This document shows positions 21,376 to 30,855 of a stretch of 30,855 nt of DNA, piece after piece. The DNA lies in the IMG/VR virus record IMGVR_UViG_3300009373_000025, positions 1-30,855 of that record; one strand, 5' to 3'. This stretch comes from a virus. The notes under the pieces are model-generated. The model was not told the origin of the DNA, did not search any database, and was given only the letters and a program-made list of their open reading frames with translations. The position numbers and the translations under genes were made by a program. The first letter of the stretch is position 1, and every line of letters starts with the position of its first letter.

Positions 21376-22074
21376 CTACTCCTTGTACCTGCTGAAGACA
21401 TCCCACTGCTGCGGAGCAGAGAACTCCTCCTGCAGCCGGTCCGCATACGTCTTCTCGGTCTCGTGATCCTGGCGTGCCTTCCAGACTCCCATGCCCACTG
21501 CTCGAACCAGGTCATCGTATCCGGTGGCCTGGCTGTTACGGTTGATCGTGACGCCGGTGTCCGTCCGGATTCGGAGGTTGACGAGCTGTGAGTCGAGGAT
21601 TTCTATCAGCTCCAAGTCTGCTGCAGTTCGCACAAGACCTGACCGGTACGCCGAGGCCAAAGCAGTGATGAGCTCGTGCCGCGGGACCATGAACACTCCG
21701 TCAACCAGACGCGATACGCTGCCGGTGGCGCTGATGGACATGAGCACCGGCTCCTCGTCGAGCTCCTCGAGGAAGTACTCGATCGCCATGCCGGTGTCAT
21801 CGATACCGAGCACGAGCTCCACCGACTTGGTCATAAAGCTTGGATGCTCGGCGAGCTCATGTGCCATCCGGTCTATCAGCGCTTCATAGCCTTCCCCCTT
21901 GACCCGCTCCATATGCGGGATTTCAAAATTGGGCACCAGGTCCCGGGCGTCGAACCGCGCGACATCTGCACCCTCGACCCCACGAGTCTTAGCGTAGTAG
22001 CCCACCTCTACCACCGCTATTGTCGAGTACTCGGCGAGGCCTTTCCAATCTGTGCAGACATACACATCAGCCAA
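21376..22074 (-). CDS. Stand-alone RNase H-fold nuclease resembling a terminase nuclease domain
   Basis: 232 aa, TTG start with GAGGTGA upstream and an 8-nt overlap with the large terminase gene; a GTG three codons later is an alternative. The layout matches the C-terminal nuclease of large terminases: first strand VYVCTDWKGLAEYSTIAVVE with D9, a second acidic strand VELVLGIDDTGMA with D92/D93, the PRHELITALASAYRSGLV helix and the final SQATGYDDLVRAVGMGVW with D187/D188. There is no ATPase domain. The terminase gene next door already encodes its own complete nuclease, so this is an extra copy of the fold. Inference: packaging-linked DNA cleavage or a structural paralogue. Confidence 0.7.
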   Translation of the reverse strand: MADVYVCTDWKGLAEYSTIAVVEVGYYAKTRGVEGADVARFDARDLVPNFEIPHMERVKGEGYEALIDRMAHELAEHPSFMTKSVELVLGIDDTGMAIEYFLEELDEEPVLMSISATGSVSRLVDGVFMVPRHELITALASAYRSGLVRTAADLELIEILDSQLVNLRIRTDTGVTINRNSQATGYDDLVRAVGMGVWKARQDHETEKTYADRLQEEFSAPQQWDVFSRYKE

Positions 22075-23386
22075 GTGACTTCACCTCACTATCAGCGGTC
22101 GATTTGCCGTAGAGCGACTTAACACTCTGTGAATGCCCACGTTGTACGTCTTCGCCTTTGAGGATATCTTCCTGCCGGCGGAATACGCGGTAAATCGTGG
22201 CGTCGATGCAGTGATCGTTGCCGTCCTGCGGCACCGGAAGATACGAGATATTCCCGTCCTCATCAGCTTTCGCCTTCCGCTTCCACGACCACATCGCGCA
22301 TTCCTGCTTCAGGTTTGGAGACTCACCGACCACGTGAATCTGCAGGCCTTTGAGCCAAAGCGCGGCAGCCGCTTTGTAGTTCGGCGCCTTGTCGCCGGCG
22401 GAGATGAGCCATCCCAGGTCCTCGAGCTCCTGGATGCTCTTGGGCTCCGCAGAGTCGCCGGAGATATCGCTCTCGCCTTTAGTCATGCCGACCGATTCCA
22501 TCACGTCCGAGAGCTCGGGATTCGTGAGATCGGTTGCGTACACCTTCTCCCGGATCCAGAGCTCGCCCGGCTTCATCCAAGTCTCGACGACGGCAGCCGG
22601 ATCCAAAGCGAATCCGAAGTCAAGACCAAATCCCTTATGAGTCATTCCTGCAGGGACACTATCGACGCAATCCCAATTCTTGAGGATTGCACCTTGCATC
22701 CGCGTGAACAGGCCGAGGCCCCACATCTGCCACAGTTCGGGATTGGTCTCGCGGTAGCGCTCGAGTACTCGTATCGTTGCGAGGGGACAAAAGAAATTGT
22801 GCTGGTACCAAGTCCTGAGAATACATGCATCATTGGCGATGACCGGGATCCCGAGCTCGGGCTTGAGCCCGTTGAACCACCGCCGCTGGATCCAGTGCTG
22901 ATAGCCTGGTATCTCAGGAATCGGGTTGAACGTAAGCCACATCTGCGGAGGCGGATCCACCGGCGCTGAAAGGCCCGCATCGAGCGTATCGAAGTCTGCC
23001 TCTGTGAACTCCGTCCCTTCCTCAAGCCAATAGTCCGTAGCTTCCTCGACGGACTTCATCTTCTCCGGGTCGTCTGCCCCAATGAAGTGAAATACTGAGC
23101 CGTTGGGGAGCCTTATCTCCCGGTCGGTTTTATTTATGTCGCAGAAGGCCAGCCAGCCAAACTCTGATAACGCATTCTTGATTCTAGCCCAGACGGAAAG
23201 TCGTATCGTCGTTGCGTATTTCCGCAGGACGAAGATGTGCCGGCTGCGGTTCTCGATCGCGAGCCTGACCAACAGCTGTGAAACTGACCATGATTTGGAG
23301 CTCCGCCGGCCGCCGTAGATAATCATGTAGCGCTCACGAACGTTCTCGAGCTGTTGGTATACGCCGTTAATCCTGACTCTTGGCAT
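22067..23386 (-). CDS. terL: Terminase large subunit
   Basis: 439 aa from the ATG at 23386 (MPRVRINGVYQQL), which has GAGG upstream and overlaps the small subunit gene by 20 nt. ATPase domain: Walker A-like IIYGGRRSSKSW (K31) and Walker B DYWLEE (D118-E123). Nuclease domain: GLDFGFALDP (D256), SGDSAEP (D311) and NDHCIDATIY (D391, D395). The order and motifs fit the PBSX/P22-like terminases of the Terminase_3 type. The same frame stays open a further 149 codons upstream to 23833, but that part belongs to the small subunit gene region. Confidence 0.92.
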   Translation of the reverse strand: MPRVRINGVYQQLENVRERYMIIYGGRRSSKSWSVSQLLVRLAIENRSRHIFVLRKYATTIRLSVWARIKNALSEFGWLAFCDINKTDREIRLPNGSVFHFIGADDPEKMKSVEEATDYWLEEGTEFTEADFDTLDAGLSAPVDPPPQMWLTFNPIPEIPGYQHWIQRRWFNGLKPELGIPVIANDACILRTWYQHNFFCPLATIRVLERYRETNPELWQMWGLGLFTRMQGAILKNWDCVDSVPAGMTHKGFGLDFGFALDPAAVVETWMKPGELWIREKVYATDLTNPELSDVMESVGMTKGESDISGDSAEPKSIQELEDLGWLISAGDKAPNYKAAAALWLKGLQIHVVGESPNLKQECAMWSWKRKAKADEDGNISYLPVPQDGNDHCIDATIYRVFRRQEDILKGEDVQRGHSQSVKSLYGKSTADSEVKSLG

Positions 23387-23833
23387 TATCCTCATCTTCT
23401 GCCTCGTTGATATATTCAATCTGGATTCTTGCCGGTGGCCCGGTCTCGCCGAATAGTGAGCTCTCGGTTTTTGTCTTACCGTGCATGTCTGCCAGCAGTT
23501 TCGTAGCATGCATGCGAGTCGTGTTGTCCTCAAACTGGCCAAGACTCTTATCCTGATGGAACTTCGTAACCTTCGCATTGAGTCGCTTATGAATTTCCTC
23601 AAGAAGTCGCTCCTCGCCCATGTTGGCAGCTGCAAGCTTCGTCTTCCAGTCAGCTTTTTTTTTATGCGTTTAAGCATGCGAGAACCGCCAACCGAAGCTA
23701 CTTCACGCGAGCATTCCGGCTTAACGAAGAGATAAGCGTCTGTCTCTGATTTCCCCGCTATGTAGGCCTGGAAAAAGATCTGTTCTCGAGGTGTCAGTGG
23801 ATTTTTCTTAACGTTTCCTAACGAATCTGCCAA
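23367..23833 (-). CDS. terS: Terminase small subunit, interrupted by a -1 frameshift at an A9 run
   Basis: The N-terminal frame starts at a TTG at 23833 with GGGAGGGG four nt upstream and reads NPLTPREQIFFQAYIAGKSE, then KPECSREVASVGGSRMLKRI, the DNA-binding helices of Terminase_2-type small subunits. At nine A (23655-23663) a -1 shift is needed to reach ADWKTKLAAANMGEERLLEE and the rest (stop at 23367), giving 155 aa, a normal length. AT[A AAA AAA] is a classic slippery heptamer. Without a shift the frame stays open into the large subunit. Programmed frameshifting, a real mutation or a homopolymer error are all possible. Confidence 0.8.
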
Positions 23834-23884: not shown

Positions 23885-24955
23885 TTATAAGGTTTTAGCT
23901 TTTTCTTGAAAATTCGTCGAAAATTTCATGTTTTGTGCCTGAAAATAGGCATGAATTTCAGTTTGTGTCTGCAAATTGTCGATTCCAGGCATTTTACCGC
24001 CCAAAAGTGAGTCCAAGCTGACACGGGGAAGACACTGCAAATTGCCTGGTGTATCCTCTGCGACTACCTCGATCATGCGCAGGCCTCCGAACTCAAGCTG
24101 GTACCTGAGCACAGTGATTTTCTCGTAGATCATCGCAGTCAAGGCCTCAAAGCCACACTCAGACATGCCGATATGATCGTTGTCCCGCGGCGGGCTGCCG
24201 TCGGCCAGGTTGGCGGCAATCTTGTTTGTTGTGCCATCGGGAAACAGCGACGGCGTCCGTGGCTTGTGCTTCCAGTAGCACAGGTCATAGCCGATGAAGT
24301 AGATCGGGCTGTAGCCCATGTAGGTTGCCAGGATCGCCGCCTGCAGCGTGGTGCCCGGGCATATTGCCACGGCATGGATGAGCGGATGCTTCATGTAGCT
24401 ATTGTTTTCGCCGAAAGCATACATCTGCAGCTGCTGAAGAGGTCCGCCTCCGGACTCCGGGTTAAACGGATCCTCCATGAGCAGGTACACCTTGGTCTCG
24501 TCCGGGAACCCTGGGAAGTCGAAGACCGGCGAGGTACATCCGGGATGCATGAGAAACGTCGCATTCGCCATTGAAACACCGGCTGCCGCGGGGATGTCCT
24601 TGCTCAGATACGCGGCTGTGTTCGGCCACGGATCATGGACTACGACGTAATTGGGCACAATTTGCCATTTGTAAAACAACATCCACATCTGCGAGGGCGT
24701 GCAGAAGATCGGGGCTTCCATTTTCGCCCTGAGCTCCTTGAGATGCGGAAGTGCGCAGCTCAGCGACGGCCCGGATCCAAGCACGAGCGCAGGGCCTGTA
24801 GCTCCCAGCTGCAGGTTTAGGTCGTGGCGCTCCGCCGCCCACTCGATCCTCGCATAGTTCTTCACGCTGTTGATGATGAACGGGAACCGTCCCCGCTCCT
24901 TCACGCTCTCGGCGCCGGCTTTGAGACGGTCTTTAAATATCTCGTATTCACTCAT
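23885..24955 (-). CDS. MptE/DUF115-like enzyme
   Basis: 356 aa from the ATG at 24955 (MSEYEIFKDRL), chosen for a GGAGG four nt upstream; an upstream in-frame start at 25012 lies within the HNH gene. Seen: ALVLGSGPSLSCALPHL (glycine-rich GSGPSL at 60-65), IVPNYVVVHDPW (D108), CPGTTLQAAILATYMGYSP and IYFIGYDLCYW. This is the pattern of the DUF115 family, which includes archaeal 6-hydroxymethylpterin pyrophosphokinase MptE and the Maf flagellin glycosylation proteins. The phage substrate is unknown. Its position just before the terminase genes and in the same strand suggests it is a cargo or modification gene. Confidence 0.8.
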   Translation of the reverse strand: MSEYEIFKDRLKAGAESVKERGRFPFIINSVKNYARIEWAAERHDLNLQLGATGPALVLGSGPSLSCALPHLKELRAKMEAPIFCTPSQMWMLFYKWQIVPNYVVVHDPWPNTAAYLSKDIPAAAGVSMANATFLMHPGCTSPVFDFPGFPDETKVYLLMEDPFNPESGGGPLQQLQMYAFGENNSYMKHPLIHAVAICPGTTLQAAILATYMGYSPIYFIGYDLCYWKHKPRTPSLFPDGTTNKIAANLADGSPPRDNDHIGMSECGFEALTAMIYEKITVLRYQLEFGGLRMIEVVAEDTPGNLQCLPRVSLDSLLGGKMPGIDNLQTQTEIHAYFQAQNMKFSTNFQEKAKTL

Positions 24956-25364
24956 TTTCCCTCCTCGCCAAATGTTTCGCTTCCACCGTTTCAAAATAAA
25001 ATTGCACGTCATGCGCAGATATATAAGCGAGTATATCTACCCCAATTCCTTTCAGCCAAGCAATCTGCTCTTTGCTAAAAACAGGAGCGCCAAGCATACG
25101 CGCTTTGTGAAGATATCGAAATCTCTCAAGAGTGTTGGTTCCCTTACGGCAATTACAGCTGCGGCAAGATGGCATAAGGTTCTTTATCTCATCTATTCCC
25201 CCGTTGAACATCGGAACAAGATGATCAATGTGCATCAGGAAATTTGCATCTAGGCGTTCTGGACGGGCAGCGTCACAATTCAACCATACTTTTTTGCCAC
25301 AGTAAGCGCACCTGCCGCCGTACATTTCAAAAACGTATTTCTGGATTGCAATACCTCTACTCAT
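24948..25364 (-). CDS. HNH endonuclease
   Basis: 138 aa, ATG at 25364 sharing ATGA with the mini gene before it. The HNH signature is clear: paired cysteines CAYCG (C19, C22), HIDHLVPMFNGG (H45, D47, H48), KNLMPSCRSCN (N62, C67, C70, N71) and KG. It lies close to the terminase genes; in several phage families such HNH proteins assist terminase in genome packaging, but free-standing homing nucleases look the same. Its own ribosome-binding site is weak, so translation likely depends on the upstream mini gene. Confidence 0.85.
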   Translation of the reverse strand: MSRGIAIQKYVFEMYGGRCAYCGKKVWLNCDAARPERLDANFLMHIDHLVPMFNGGIDEIKNLMPSCRSCNCRKGTNTLERFRYLHKARMLGAPVFSKEQIAWLKGIGVDILAYISAHDVQFYFETVEAKHLARRENE

Positions 25365-25426
25365 TTTTTTCTCTGATGCCCCATGAGCTCAAGCACCGCC
25401 CATTCTGAAAATGATTCATTAGACAT
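25361..25426 (-). CDS. 21-codon mini gene, truncated 'ELMGHQ' peptide
   Basis: ATG at 25426 overlaps the stop of the replication gene (TAATG) and follows GGAGGGG by nine nt; the stop TGA overlaps the HNH start. The peptide contains EWAVLELMGHQ, which recalls the N-terminus of a recurrent phage protein ('W.vvELmGH...aG') normally about 60-80 aa. Here it ends after RKK. Its last codons form the slippery heptamer A AAA AAA directly before the stop, and a -1 shift would enter the HNH frame. It may be a leader that couples HNH translation, a remnant cut by HNH insertion, or a frameshift N-terminus. Confidence 0.55.
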   Translation of the reverse strand: MSNESFSEWAVLELMGHQRKK

Positions 25427-26409
25427 TATTGATTTCCCCTCCTCGAAAGAAGCTCCTTCGCCTCTCGAATGGCCTTTGGATTCTTGAACTGCCCTTTTTC
25501 CAACCCGCATCGCGGGCACGCGGCCATTGTTCCCACGAGCTCTCTACCACAGGCCGGACATTTGACCTTGCGATTCAGGTACTGCGGTGATGCGCGGGCT
25601 TTTTTGTCTGTTTTCATCTGCATCATGAGCTTTGCGAATTGCTTTCTAAGCGAGCCAGCGCTGAGGATATTCGTTTTCCAGAATGTGTCGGATTGACACC
25701 AGTCGATGACTTTTTCGACGAGCGTAGGCGAGCGCCCGTCTCGTTCCACAAGAAGCCTGATATCGTTTGCCCAGGTAAGGGCGATTTTCTCAGCATTTTT
25801 ATTTTTGAAGTGATCCGGATCATTCTGGCTGATACGACCGATGAGCTTTTCGGCGAGAGGAATGTATTTAGCGTTCTCATGCGCGCGCGCGTCTTCTTCT
25901 TCCTCTTCCTTTTCCTTATCCTTTTCTAGATCCTTATCCTTTTCCTTTTCCTTTTCCTTTTCTTGGGGCCCTCGGAGAGGGCTAAGAGAGTTCTCTTTAG
26001 GGTCTTTTAGAGGACTCGGAGACCCTTCGGAGACCTCTTCGAGGGGTCTCGGAGGGCTCTCGGAGGGCTCTCGGAGGGGCCAGAGGCCGTGCCTTTTCAG
26101 CAGCTTTATATAGCTTATGTGCGCATTATTCCTACTGCCTTCACTCAGATCACCATACTGAAAATCGCAGAAATCCGGAATCCACCACTTTCCCGATTCA
26201 AGAACGTGGATATTGCTGTTAACCCGATCTGGCAGCGTGTCCCAATCCACGCTTTCGCCAATTTTGAACTCCGCGGTTTCAAAATCAGGGATCCACACGC
26301 CGACGTTGTCGCATTTGTCCTTGATATACCTGAAAGCTTCTTTTTCCGCCGGCGACAGCTTGCGAAACCAGGGACGTTCCCAGAGTTCTGTATCAGTAAA
26401 CCGTTTCAA
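25426..26409 (-). CDS. Replication initiator-like protein
   Basis: 327 aa. The start chosen is TTG at 26409 (MKRFTDTELWERPWFRKL) because GGGAGGGG lies four nt upstream and the family N-terminus fits; an upstream TTG at 26436 would overlap the preceding gene and lacks such a site. Residues 1-105 (ERPWFRKLSPAEKEAFRYI, DKCDNVGVWIPDF, FCDFQYG, RHGL) look like the winged-helix N-terminus of phage replication organisers. A Pro/Ser then Lys/Glu/Asp linker follows (about 105-180), then a helical domain (about 180-265) and a C-terminal zinc ribbon CPACG...CPRCG. Lambda O-like initiation is inferred. The linker DNA is repetitive. Confidence 0.7.
   Translation of the reverse strand: MKRFTDTELWERPWFRKLSPAEKEAFRYIKDKCDNVGVWIPDFETAEFKIGESVDWDTLPDRVNSNIHVLESGKWWIPDFCDFQYGDLSEGSRNNAHISYIKLLKRHGLWPLREPSESPPRPLEEVSEGSPSPLKDPKENSLSPLRGPQEKEKEKEKDKDLEKDKEKEEEEEDARAHENAKYIPLAEKLIGRISQNDPDHFKNKNAEKIALTWANDIRLLVERDGRSPTLVEKVIDWCQSDTFWKTNILSAGSLRKQFAKLMMQMKTDKKARASPQYLNRKVKCPACGRELVGTMAACPRCGLEKGQFKNPKAIREAKELLSRRGNQ
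25880..25964 (-). repeat. Purine hexamer tract and alternating CG run
   Basis: Directly downstream of the 11-mers the minus strand is almost pure purine: AAAAGG and ATAAGG hexamers repeated about nine times, then AAG triplets (25892-25964), coding for Lys/Glu/Asp. It ends in an alternating GCGCGCGCGC run at 25881-25890 (coding DARAH), able to adopt Z-form. The combination of repeats and an easily melted or triplex-prone tract is reminiscent of a phage origin. Confidence 0.65.
25967..26078 (-). repeat. 11-nt iteron-like array inside the replication gene
   Basis: On the minus strand the 11-mer CCCTCCGAGAG begins at 26078 and recurs head-to-tail: exact at 26067, one change at 26056, then degenerate at 26045, 26034, 26023 and 26012, with a further related copy near 25977. 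The period of 11 is not a multiple of three, so the peptide sequence does not itself repeat, which argues for a DNA-level origin or role. Copies 3-6 also form strong inverted repeats (GAGACC.../GGTCTC). Confidence 0.75.
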
Positions 26410-26422
26410 AACTCCCCTCCCA

Positions 26423-27229
26423 TTAAGGCAGCTCAAGGCTGAGCTTTTCGATTTCCGCTTTCAGCTCAGCGAGTGTTTTTTGCGCTTCAGAAATCCGCCA
26501 CACATATTTCCCGAGAGATCCGTTAATCAACTTGTCGAGCTCCTGCCGGAATCTGTCGCCTGTCAAATATGCCACGTATCCTGGTGTGAGCCCGAGTTGT
26601 ACGACCATGTCTTTGATGGCCTGAAACGACTCAATTTCTCGTCGAAGCTGCTCGTTCCGGTCCGCCACCTCGAAGATCCGCTTTTTTATTGCCTGAGATA
26701 ACGTCCTTGATACCCGGGCTCCCAGTTCGTGGTTGATCTCCTTGGTCTCAAGCCATCGTTGGAAATACATTGCTCTCTCTTCGCTGCTCAACTCGCCCAA
26801 CCGGATACTCCACGGCCGTTTGATGACCGTTCTGGCCATCAAAATATAGCGATATAGCTCTTCCGGTATCGGATGGTCGTCGTATATGGCTTTCTTTTTC
26901 TTGTACAAGCGCTTGGCGTTTTTTGAGACCCAGATAAGACCTAGCTTGTCCGGAATCTCGTCCGGCATAATCAGGTCAGCGGGGCACACGAAATAGAGCT
27001 CGTTACAGTACTCGGTGTATGCATAGAACTTATCGTCATTCATGAAATCGGAGCGCGAGACCTTGATCTCGTAGCCCGTGACCATGGGACTGGCCCACGA
27101 TCGCTTCATCGCCCATCCGTCGAGCCTTAGATGGCCGCCCCAAGTGGGTCCGTTTTTACACTCAGGCACGTAAACGTCTTCCAAATGTCGAAGCTTAAGT
27201 AAATCCTGTATGCCGTCTGCAGATATCAA
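26423..27229 (-). CDS. MmcB-like PD-(D/E)XK nuclease
   Basis: 268 aa, TTG start with GGGAGGGG three nt upstream. The N-terminal half fits the MmcB DNA repair nuclease family: RLDGWAMKRSW (D37), YEIKVSRSDFMNDDKF (E54, K56 as the catalytic E-x-K), CNELYFVCPADLIMPDEIPD and KLGLIWVS. Downstream of about residue 160 the protein is helical and coiled (ISEAQKTLAELKAEIEKL at the end) and is not part of the usual short MmcB protein (about 150 aa), so it may be a fusion with a phage-specific binding domain. It lies between the ParB-like and replication genes. Confidence 0.75.
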   Translation of the reverse strand: MISADGIQDLLKLRHLEDVYVPECKNGPTWGGHLRLDGWAMKRSWASPMVTGYEIKVSRSDFMNDDKFYAYTEYCNELYFVCPADLIMPDEIPDKLGLIWVSKNAKRLYKKKKAIYDDHPIPEELYRYILMARTVIKRPWSIRLGELSSEERAMYFQRWLETKEINHELGARVSRTLSQAIKKRIFEVADRNEQLRREIESFQAIKDMVVQLGLTPGYVAYLTGDRFRQELDKLINGSLGKYVWRISEAQKTLAELKAEIEKLSLELP

Positions 27230-29910: not shown

Positions 29911-30284
29911 CCCTTCCTCCCATCCACCATCACGATGATCCGGTCCTGCTTCCCCTGCTCATGGACCGTCGCCGGGAACATGAAGAATGAGTCCAGACTC
30001 CGATCGTTGGCCACGACGGCGGCTCCCTCGAGGCTATCAAATACCGCGTCAATCACGTTCTGCGGATCTACCCTGGGCCCCACCGAAACCTTGAGCGCAA
30101 GGGAAAATCTCGAGAACGGAAGCTGGGCTTCTATAAACTTGTTTCGCCGTATCTGCTCGAGCCAGACGAGGATGAGGGAGTTTTTTAATGTCGTGTACTC
30201 GTCGGTATTCACCAGGCGCCCTCTGCCCGGTCCTTTCGTCCGGTTCTTCGAGACGGCTTTGCCTGCCCATTCCATGACGATCAT
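29907..30284 (-). CDS. RusA-like Holliday junction resolvase with altered active site
   Basis: 125 aa, ATG at 30284 sharing ATGA with the radical SAM gene; a second ATG at 30275 is an alternative. The RusA pattern is clear: GKAVSKNRTKGPGRGRL and Y near the N-terminus, then VDPQNVIDAVFDSLEGAAVVANDRSL. In RusA the motif is usually D-x-D-N-x-x-K...D...DD; here D73, N76, D79, D83 and D94 are present, but the second Asp is Gln75, the Lys is replaced and DD is ND. The fold looks intact, but activity may be altered. RusA enzymes resolve recombination and replication junctions. Confidence 0.7.
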   Translation of the reverse strand: MIVMEWAGKAVSKNRTKGPGRGRLVNTDEYTTLKNSLILVWLEQIRRNKFIEAQLPFSRFSLALKVSVGPRVDPQNVIDAVFDSLEGAAVVANDRSLDSFFMFPATVHEQGKQDRIIVMVDGRKG

Positions 30285-30855
30285 ATTTTCCAGCTCGCCC
30301 CGTCCCTCGGCGGCTCCTTAAGTGAGTAGAACGTGTTGTAGTAGTCTGAGTGGAAGTTGACGGGATACCACGGATTATCCGTTCGCGGATCGCCCTTGAA
30401 CTGGAGCTCCGGATCCCGGAACTGCACGGCGCCTTCGAATCCCCGGCCGGTATAAGAAAAACCACACGTCGCGCACGGGCCACGGAACATCCCTCGATCC
30501 TGCTCGTGGCGGAACTTGCACATCTTCTCGCCGTTATAGATCTCGAGCAGCGTATGCGGCCCGTCGACGTTGCCGAACTTGAAATAATCCTTGTTCGTTG
30601 CCTCGTCGTTGTAGCTGCAGGGCACAACGGCACCGTCCCACTTGATCACCATGAACATGGGATTGGAGTACATGCACGGATGCGTCCGGAACCCCTCCGG
30701 ATTCCTGTCGTCGACCATTAGCCGGCCCTCGCATACGTAGTCGATGTACGGCTTCTTGAGCCAGTAGTGGATGAACTTCTCGATCTCCGCTTGGTCCTGG
30801 CCTCGCCGGCAGATCTTCACTGCCATGTCGATCTGATCGCCTTTCGCCCGCTTCA
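30281..30855 (-). CDS. Radical SAM protein, C-terminal SPASM-like part (5' end outside window)
   Basis: The frame is open to the right edge, so the usual N-terminal CxxxCxxC radical SAM domain is not visible. From the Met at 30826 the visible part shows a SPASM or twitch-like cluster-binding pattern: C51-x13-G-x4-C70 (CMYSNPMFMVIKWDGAVVPC), FKFGNV and LLEIYNGE strands, then CATC (C118, C121). The further C-x5-C-x3-C of a full SPASM domain is missing, so it may bind one auxiliary cluster. Such enzymes modify peptides, sugars or other substrates. Confidence 0.7.
   Translation of the reverse strand, partial: KRAKGDQIDMAVKICRRGQDQAEIEKFIHYWLKKPYIDYVCEGRLMVDDRNPEGFRTHPCMYSNPMFMVIKWDGAVVPCSYNDEATNKDYFKFGNVDGPHTLLEIYNGEKMCKFRHEQDRGMFRGPCATCGFSYTGRGFEGAVQFRDPELQFKGDPRTDNPWYPVNFHSDYYNTFYSLKEPPRDGASWKI

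Follow-up and report, generated by a model that had tools for sequence, protein, structure and literature searches.

Does the repetitive linker of a phage replication initiator gene hold the origin at which that initiator acts? The question arises at one locus of a 30,855-base IMG/VR virus record, a fragment that is called the window here. From comparative evidence and from analogy with known systems, we consider it very likely that a phage replication origin, probably of the theta type, lies within the linker of its own initiator gene.

The initiator gene and its linker in the window

Nearly all genes of the window are on the minus strand. On the left are the genes for tail, head, head-tail adaptor and terminase, and to the right of the terminase follow, in order: MptE-like, HNH, initiator, MmcB-like and ParB-like genes. 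The MptE-like protein (PF01973) is encoded at 23885-25012, between the HNH gene and the terminase large subunit gene (22067-23833), the latter about 2 kb from the repeat array. The window proteins scanned, a subset of the open reading frames of this fragment, included no recognisable helicase or loader. A SPASM (iron-sulfur) domain protein is encoded at 30281-30826, close to the right edge, and is possibly a piece of a radical-SAM system lost at the contig end. At the other end, positions 202-436 hold a tandem repeat of a 90-nt unit (2.6 copies, 77% match).

The open reading frame of the initiator gene spans 25426-26436 on the minus strand and its translation is 336 aa as listed. Translation probably begins at a TTG at 26409 and not at the listed start, because the conserved protein opens MKRFTDTE from there. 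The proteins of relatives open M(A)KRFTDT, and a ribosome-binding-like site (GGGAGGGGAG) precedes the TTG.

The N-terminal DNA-binding domain (about residues 10-120; 26076-26409, minus strand) is a predicted winged helix. AlphaFold2 modelled it confidently, with pLDDT block means of 86-98 over residues 21-120 and values mostly about 93-98. Fold matches were winged helices at modest Z, including origin-recognition proteins and the N-terminal domains of plasmid Rep proteins, with no clear single relative; the RepA_N-type structures 4pql, 4pt7 and 5kbj scored Z about 4, tied with many other winged helices. Foldseek returned nothing below E 1, PDB sequence searches returned nothing meaningful, and no Pfam, PHROGs or NCBIfam model matched the N-terminal family. 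The RepA_N Pfam model (PF06970) did not match the window and matched one of the 11 members of A1 at E 0.1. The window protein had no Pfam match to the lambda O families up to E 0.1, and O-like PHROG matches covered only residues from 124 on, not the N-terminal domain.

Past this domain, AlphaFold2 predicted disorder for residues 134-161, a long helix over the charged tract for residues 162-204, and a C-terminal domain of moderate confidence. PHROG and tblastn matches assign the C-terminal domain (25561-25860, minus strand) to a phage replisome organizer or DnaD-like type. The PHROG matches were 4880 (E 4e-31), 2514 (E 2e-29) and 391, the first two of which span the charged tract as well, and tblastn matches to replication proteins of Bacillus, Lactobacillus and Listeria phages all fell within residues about 190-290, with E values down to 9e-15. 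The matching Bacillus phage replisome organizers have a helicase and a gp40-annotated helicase loader as gene neighbours. Near the end of the window gene, 25480-25570 encodes a zinc-ribbon-like CPACG...CPRCG stretch that has weak Pfam matches and does not occur in the relatives read.

Between the two domains, about 330-440 nt inside the coding sequence, lies an array of ten in-phase 11-nt units (26078 to 25969, minus strand; register read on the coding strand) with the consensus CCCTCCGAGAG, an imperfect CTCnGAG dyad. An earlier note on this DNA had counted at least six units, a conservative figure. Counted by eye, the successive units match the consensus at 11, 11, 10, 9, 7, 7, 6, 6, 6 and 9 of 11 positions, so that the best-matching iterons are at the 5' end of the array; the last, tract-proximal unit (CTCTCCGAGGG) can also be read as an inverted copy. 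Measured against synonymous recodings, the best inverted repeat of the window itself was not significant. Self-match at lag 11 reached 34/44 in the window, and the highest value that 60 whole-window Markov simulations gave was 26. Locally it was 21/22 (p 0.005 and Z 4.7 against synonymous recodings of the same peptide), and the array exceeded 200/200 recodings. The claim that an 11-nt period does not fit codons was correct, and its visible trace in the peptide is a weak 11-residue (33-nt) repeat. An exact scan of IMG/VR with CCCTCCGAGAGCCCTCCGAGA gave no match; the iteron sequence of the window was therefore not seen elsewhere.

Four bases separate the array from a 73-nt purine tract of AAAAGG/ATAAGG hexamers (25964 to 25892, minus strand), which is proposed as a DNA unwinding element from its composition and stability. 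Array and tract are the two strongest short periodicities of the window, and they are adjacent. On the plus strand 68/73 positions of 25892-25964 are pyrimidines, which makes this the top 73-mer of the window, the next best elsewhere having 58; the tract that the note described is thus borne out far above chance. Its GC content is 37%. By duplex stability computed from the sequence, a 70-nt stretch of the tract is among the least stable 0.03% of all 70-nt windows, in agreement with an origin. The 10-nt alternating CG run GCGCGCGCGC is present at 25881-25890, as noted earlier, and its inclusion in the origin did not stand. It is incidental and outside the conserved feature, because an equal run was found in 16/100 shuffles of the window and in the initiator gene of 0/49 relatives examined. 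Cumulative GC skew, which had been suggested as a check, was flat with no inflection at the site, which is uninformative in a linear 30-kb fragment where most genes share a strand.

Array and tract across the family

A first set of relatives (L001-L015) was biased, as its query patterns included charged-tract EKEKEKE peptides. The search was repeated with the N-terminal domain only and found 388 IMG/VR relatives, 80 of which were kept (L017-L096). Five first-set loci were added (L005, L006, L011, L012 and L013), four of which survived as representatives after clustering at 70% identity, window included, into 39 non-redundant representatives. Contigs of relatives were from Bacteroidota, Melainabacteria/Gastranaerophilales and Chitinispirillales. 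Pseudanabaena phage Pan5 was the one cultured phage found with a related N-terminal domain, and the search for plasmid relatives found none. The C-terminal domain alone gave no confirmed relatives in IMG/VR. Genes adjoining the initiator in relatives included those of a DnaB-like helicase (L018) and a DnaC-like loader (L055).

For the family test each peptide was fixed, its codons were resampled and linker self-match was scored per lag. Lag 11 was raised in 22-23/39 representatives at p<0.05 and in 17-18 at p<=0.01. Other lags (7-10, 13-17 and 19-21) were raised in 0-2/39 only, lags at multiples of 6 in 2-7/39, and lag 22 in 7-9/39; the multiples-of-6 signal is attributed to the hexamer tract. 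Four control segments of the same genes gave a raised lag 11 in 1, 5, 1 and 2 representatives. In 24/25 scored members the array was immediately 5' of the hexamer tract, usually with no more than about 12 nt between the two. L011 is the exception and an ambiguous one, its tract itself scoring.

The hexamer tract was found in 35/39 representatives, a count that misses L011, the tract of which sits past an HNH-like insert and hence outside the fixed search range. The insert, in the initiator of L011 (L011:5995-6978), is an HNH-endonuclease-like stretch that separates the N-terminal domain from the linker with its iterons and purine tract. Three of the 39 (L074, L084 and L086) keep the N-terminal domain and have neither a tract nor a convincing array; the feature is therefore common, not universal. 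Many other representatives have two recognisable iterons only.

Iteron sequences vary by phage, for example: AAAGGGTATCC, AAGCCCCTTAC, ATAGACTATCT and CCCTCCGAGAG. The linker of L006 reads AAAGGGTATCC AAAGGGTATCC ATACCCT, then GAAAAGGAAAAGG; that of L048 has TATATAAGGTC-type units, then AAGGATAAGGAC; that of L058 reads AAGCCCCTAAC AAGCCCCTTAC, then GATAAAGATAAAG; and those of L036 and L055 have ATAGACTATAC-type units. Contigs of named bacteria have a matching layout, such as L100 with three AAAGGGTATCC-like units. Inverted repeats were significant against synonymous recodings in 11/39 representatives only; a terminal inverted iteron is therefore common in AAGGGTAT-type members and no general rule. 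One locus with an unrelated-looking N-terminal domain and a similar C-terminal domain (L014:3917-4627) has 12-nt repeats (GGGGCTACCGGA) and, after them, an EKEKEK tract, a hint of the same layout outside the N-terminal-domain family.

The tract DNA is kept while its reading changes. A run of 25 nucleotides common to the window and L005 is translated as EKEKEKEK in the former and as GKGKGKGK in the latter. Likewise, L048 and L085 share 29 nucleotides, read as KDKDKD and QGQGQG respectively; in both pairs the frames differ. Taken with the codon-incompatible period of 11 nt, these shifts of frame point to the DNA as the level under selection. The earlier note had asked whether related phages conserve the 11-mers despite a changing peptide. 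In the following sense the outcome favoured the note: what recurs in relatives as the peptide changes is the 11-nt period, its site between the N-terminal domain and the tract, and the hexamers; the iteron sequence itself varies.

Iteron type tracks the tree of N-terminal domains, with 5 changes against a mean of 11.7 and a minimum of 8 in 300 shuffles. This tree is built on 94 columns and has weak forks, and the window, wrongly labelled B by the automatic A/B/C assignment, was left out of the counted test. Part of this co-inheritance is expected, because linkage within one gene suffices. Alignment columns that differ between types A and B are confounded by descent. Members with related C-terminal domains can carry different types of iteron (L018, L020 and L021 with L036; L028 with L041 and L106). 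These patterns fit an N-terminal domain that would read the iterons and C-terminal parts that may have been exchanged.

The origin reading and its alternatives

As a mechanism, the interpretation of the site as a replication origin gains support from analogy and from the comparative evidence. The winged-helix N-terminal domain would bind the 11-bp iterons, and, with one helical turn from each iteron to the next, all bound protomers would sit on one side of the DNA. Once assembled, the complex would then destabilise the adjoining low-stability purine/pyrimidine hexamer tract, the putative unwinding element, which the initiator may hold as a single strand. The C-terminal domain, tethered by the origin-encoded linker, would recruit the helicase or its loader.

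Could the repeats be a by-product of the protein, that is, of a flexible charged KE/KD linker expanded by slippage and without a role as DNA? Low-complexity charged linkers are widespread, slippage by a hexamer, which is two codons long, keeps the frame, and AlphaFold2 gives disorder or a lone helix for the linker. The 11-nt period is, however, incompatible with codons and above synonymous recodings in most members, and differences of frame turn the same hexamer DNA into EK, GK, KD and QG, which leaves this explanation improbable. We give still less weight to the array as an operator, and not an origin, through which the initiator would repress itself or tune its own operon. Initiators such as plasmid Rep proteins often autoregulate by binding their own iterons, and the array could serve both roles, but it lies several hundred nucleotides inside the coding sequence and is coupled to the low-stability hexamer tract. 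Least probable of all, and very nearly dismissed, is a packaging (pac) or recombination site: the nearby terminase large subunit gene of the window would suit it, but in the loci examined the array of relatives stays in the initiator gene, and the recognised neighbours are a helicase, a loader, a methyltransferase or HNH, not a terminase.

Beyond an intragenic origin in the window, we tentatively propose, as possible and not quite probable, a large undescribed initiator family that serves diverse hosts with one origin grammar. Sequence-variable 11-bp iterons, which would change with the N-terminal domain and often have an inverted last copy, would abut strand-biased AAGGAN-type purine hexamers. 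The hexamers would be a specific unwinding element read by the initiator, not merely AT-rich DNA, and C-terminal domains would be swapped across the tract.

Comparison with known initiators and origins

Given the experimentally studied precedents of lambda O, SPP1 gp38 and pSK41 Rep, an intragenic iteron origin is an already known kind. A description of this initiator family or of its iteron-hexamer grammar was not found in the open-licence literature searched. The signature could locate origins and initiators in hundreds of uncultured phages, from hosts with few phage models, in which the initiator gene is now unannotated or 'hypothetical'. Iteron variation against one domain family provides a data set on change in initiator DNA specificity. 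The hexamer tract, being independent of reading frame, offers a case in which the idea of a sequence-specific unwinding element can be tested.

Lambda O with ori-lambda resembles the window in having iterons followed by an AT-rich tract in the middle of the initiator gene. Lambda has four iterons, which are longer than 11 bp; the window has ten of 11 bp and its relatives often two to four. The 'lambda O-like' label of the earlier note holds as an analogy of layout and not as homology, because the N-terminal domain has no match in any curated family, those of lambda O and RepA_N included. In lambdoid origins the iterons and then an AT-rich tract lie midway through the O gene, and each gain of iterons lengthens O by residues that are not predicted to contact DNA (PMC7466680).

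In pSK41 Rep, a winged-helix N-terminal domain binds Rep boxes in the DNA coding for the central linker, and this origin-encoded linker is dispensable to the protein (PMC5703833). The RepA_N initiators (pSK41 and pTZ2162) and PLE RepA have an N-terminal domain of about 120 residues and a variable C-terminal domain, with modular swaps (PMC5703833). The window shares with RepA_N plasmids an N-terminal winged helix, predicted in its case, and repeats in linker-coding DNA, and differs from them in lacking a RepA_N Pfam match. The unwinding element of RK2 oriV is built of 13-mers and the one proposed for the window of purine hexamers. The origins of RK2 and other iteron plasmids are not known to lie inside the rep gene. 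In RK2 oriV and other iteron-plasmid origins, as in the window, the iterons adjoin a repeat-bearing low-stability element, and Rep can bind its single strand (PMC4081077).

In SPP1, oriL lies within gene 38, and gp38 binds its direct repeats, which have an AT-rich unwinding element next to them (PMC6316719). The window has homologues of its C-terminal domain among Bacillus phage replisome organizers; its N-terminal domain is unlike the Bacillus phage proteins aligned, a set that did not include SPP1 gp38. As in SPP1, direct repeats and an AT-rich putative unwinding element lie together inside the gene of an origin-binding protein, putative in the window; in contrast to the SPP1 type, the window has 11-nt iterons and a purine hexamer tract of its own.
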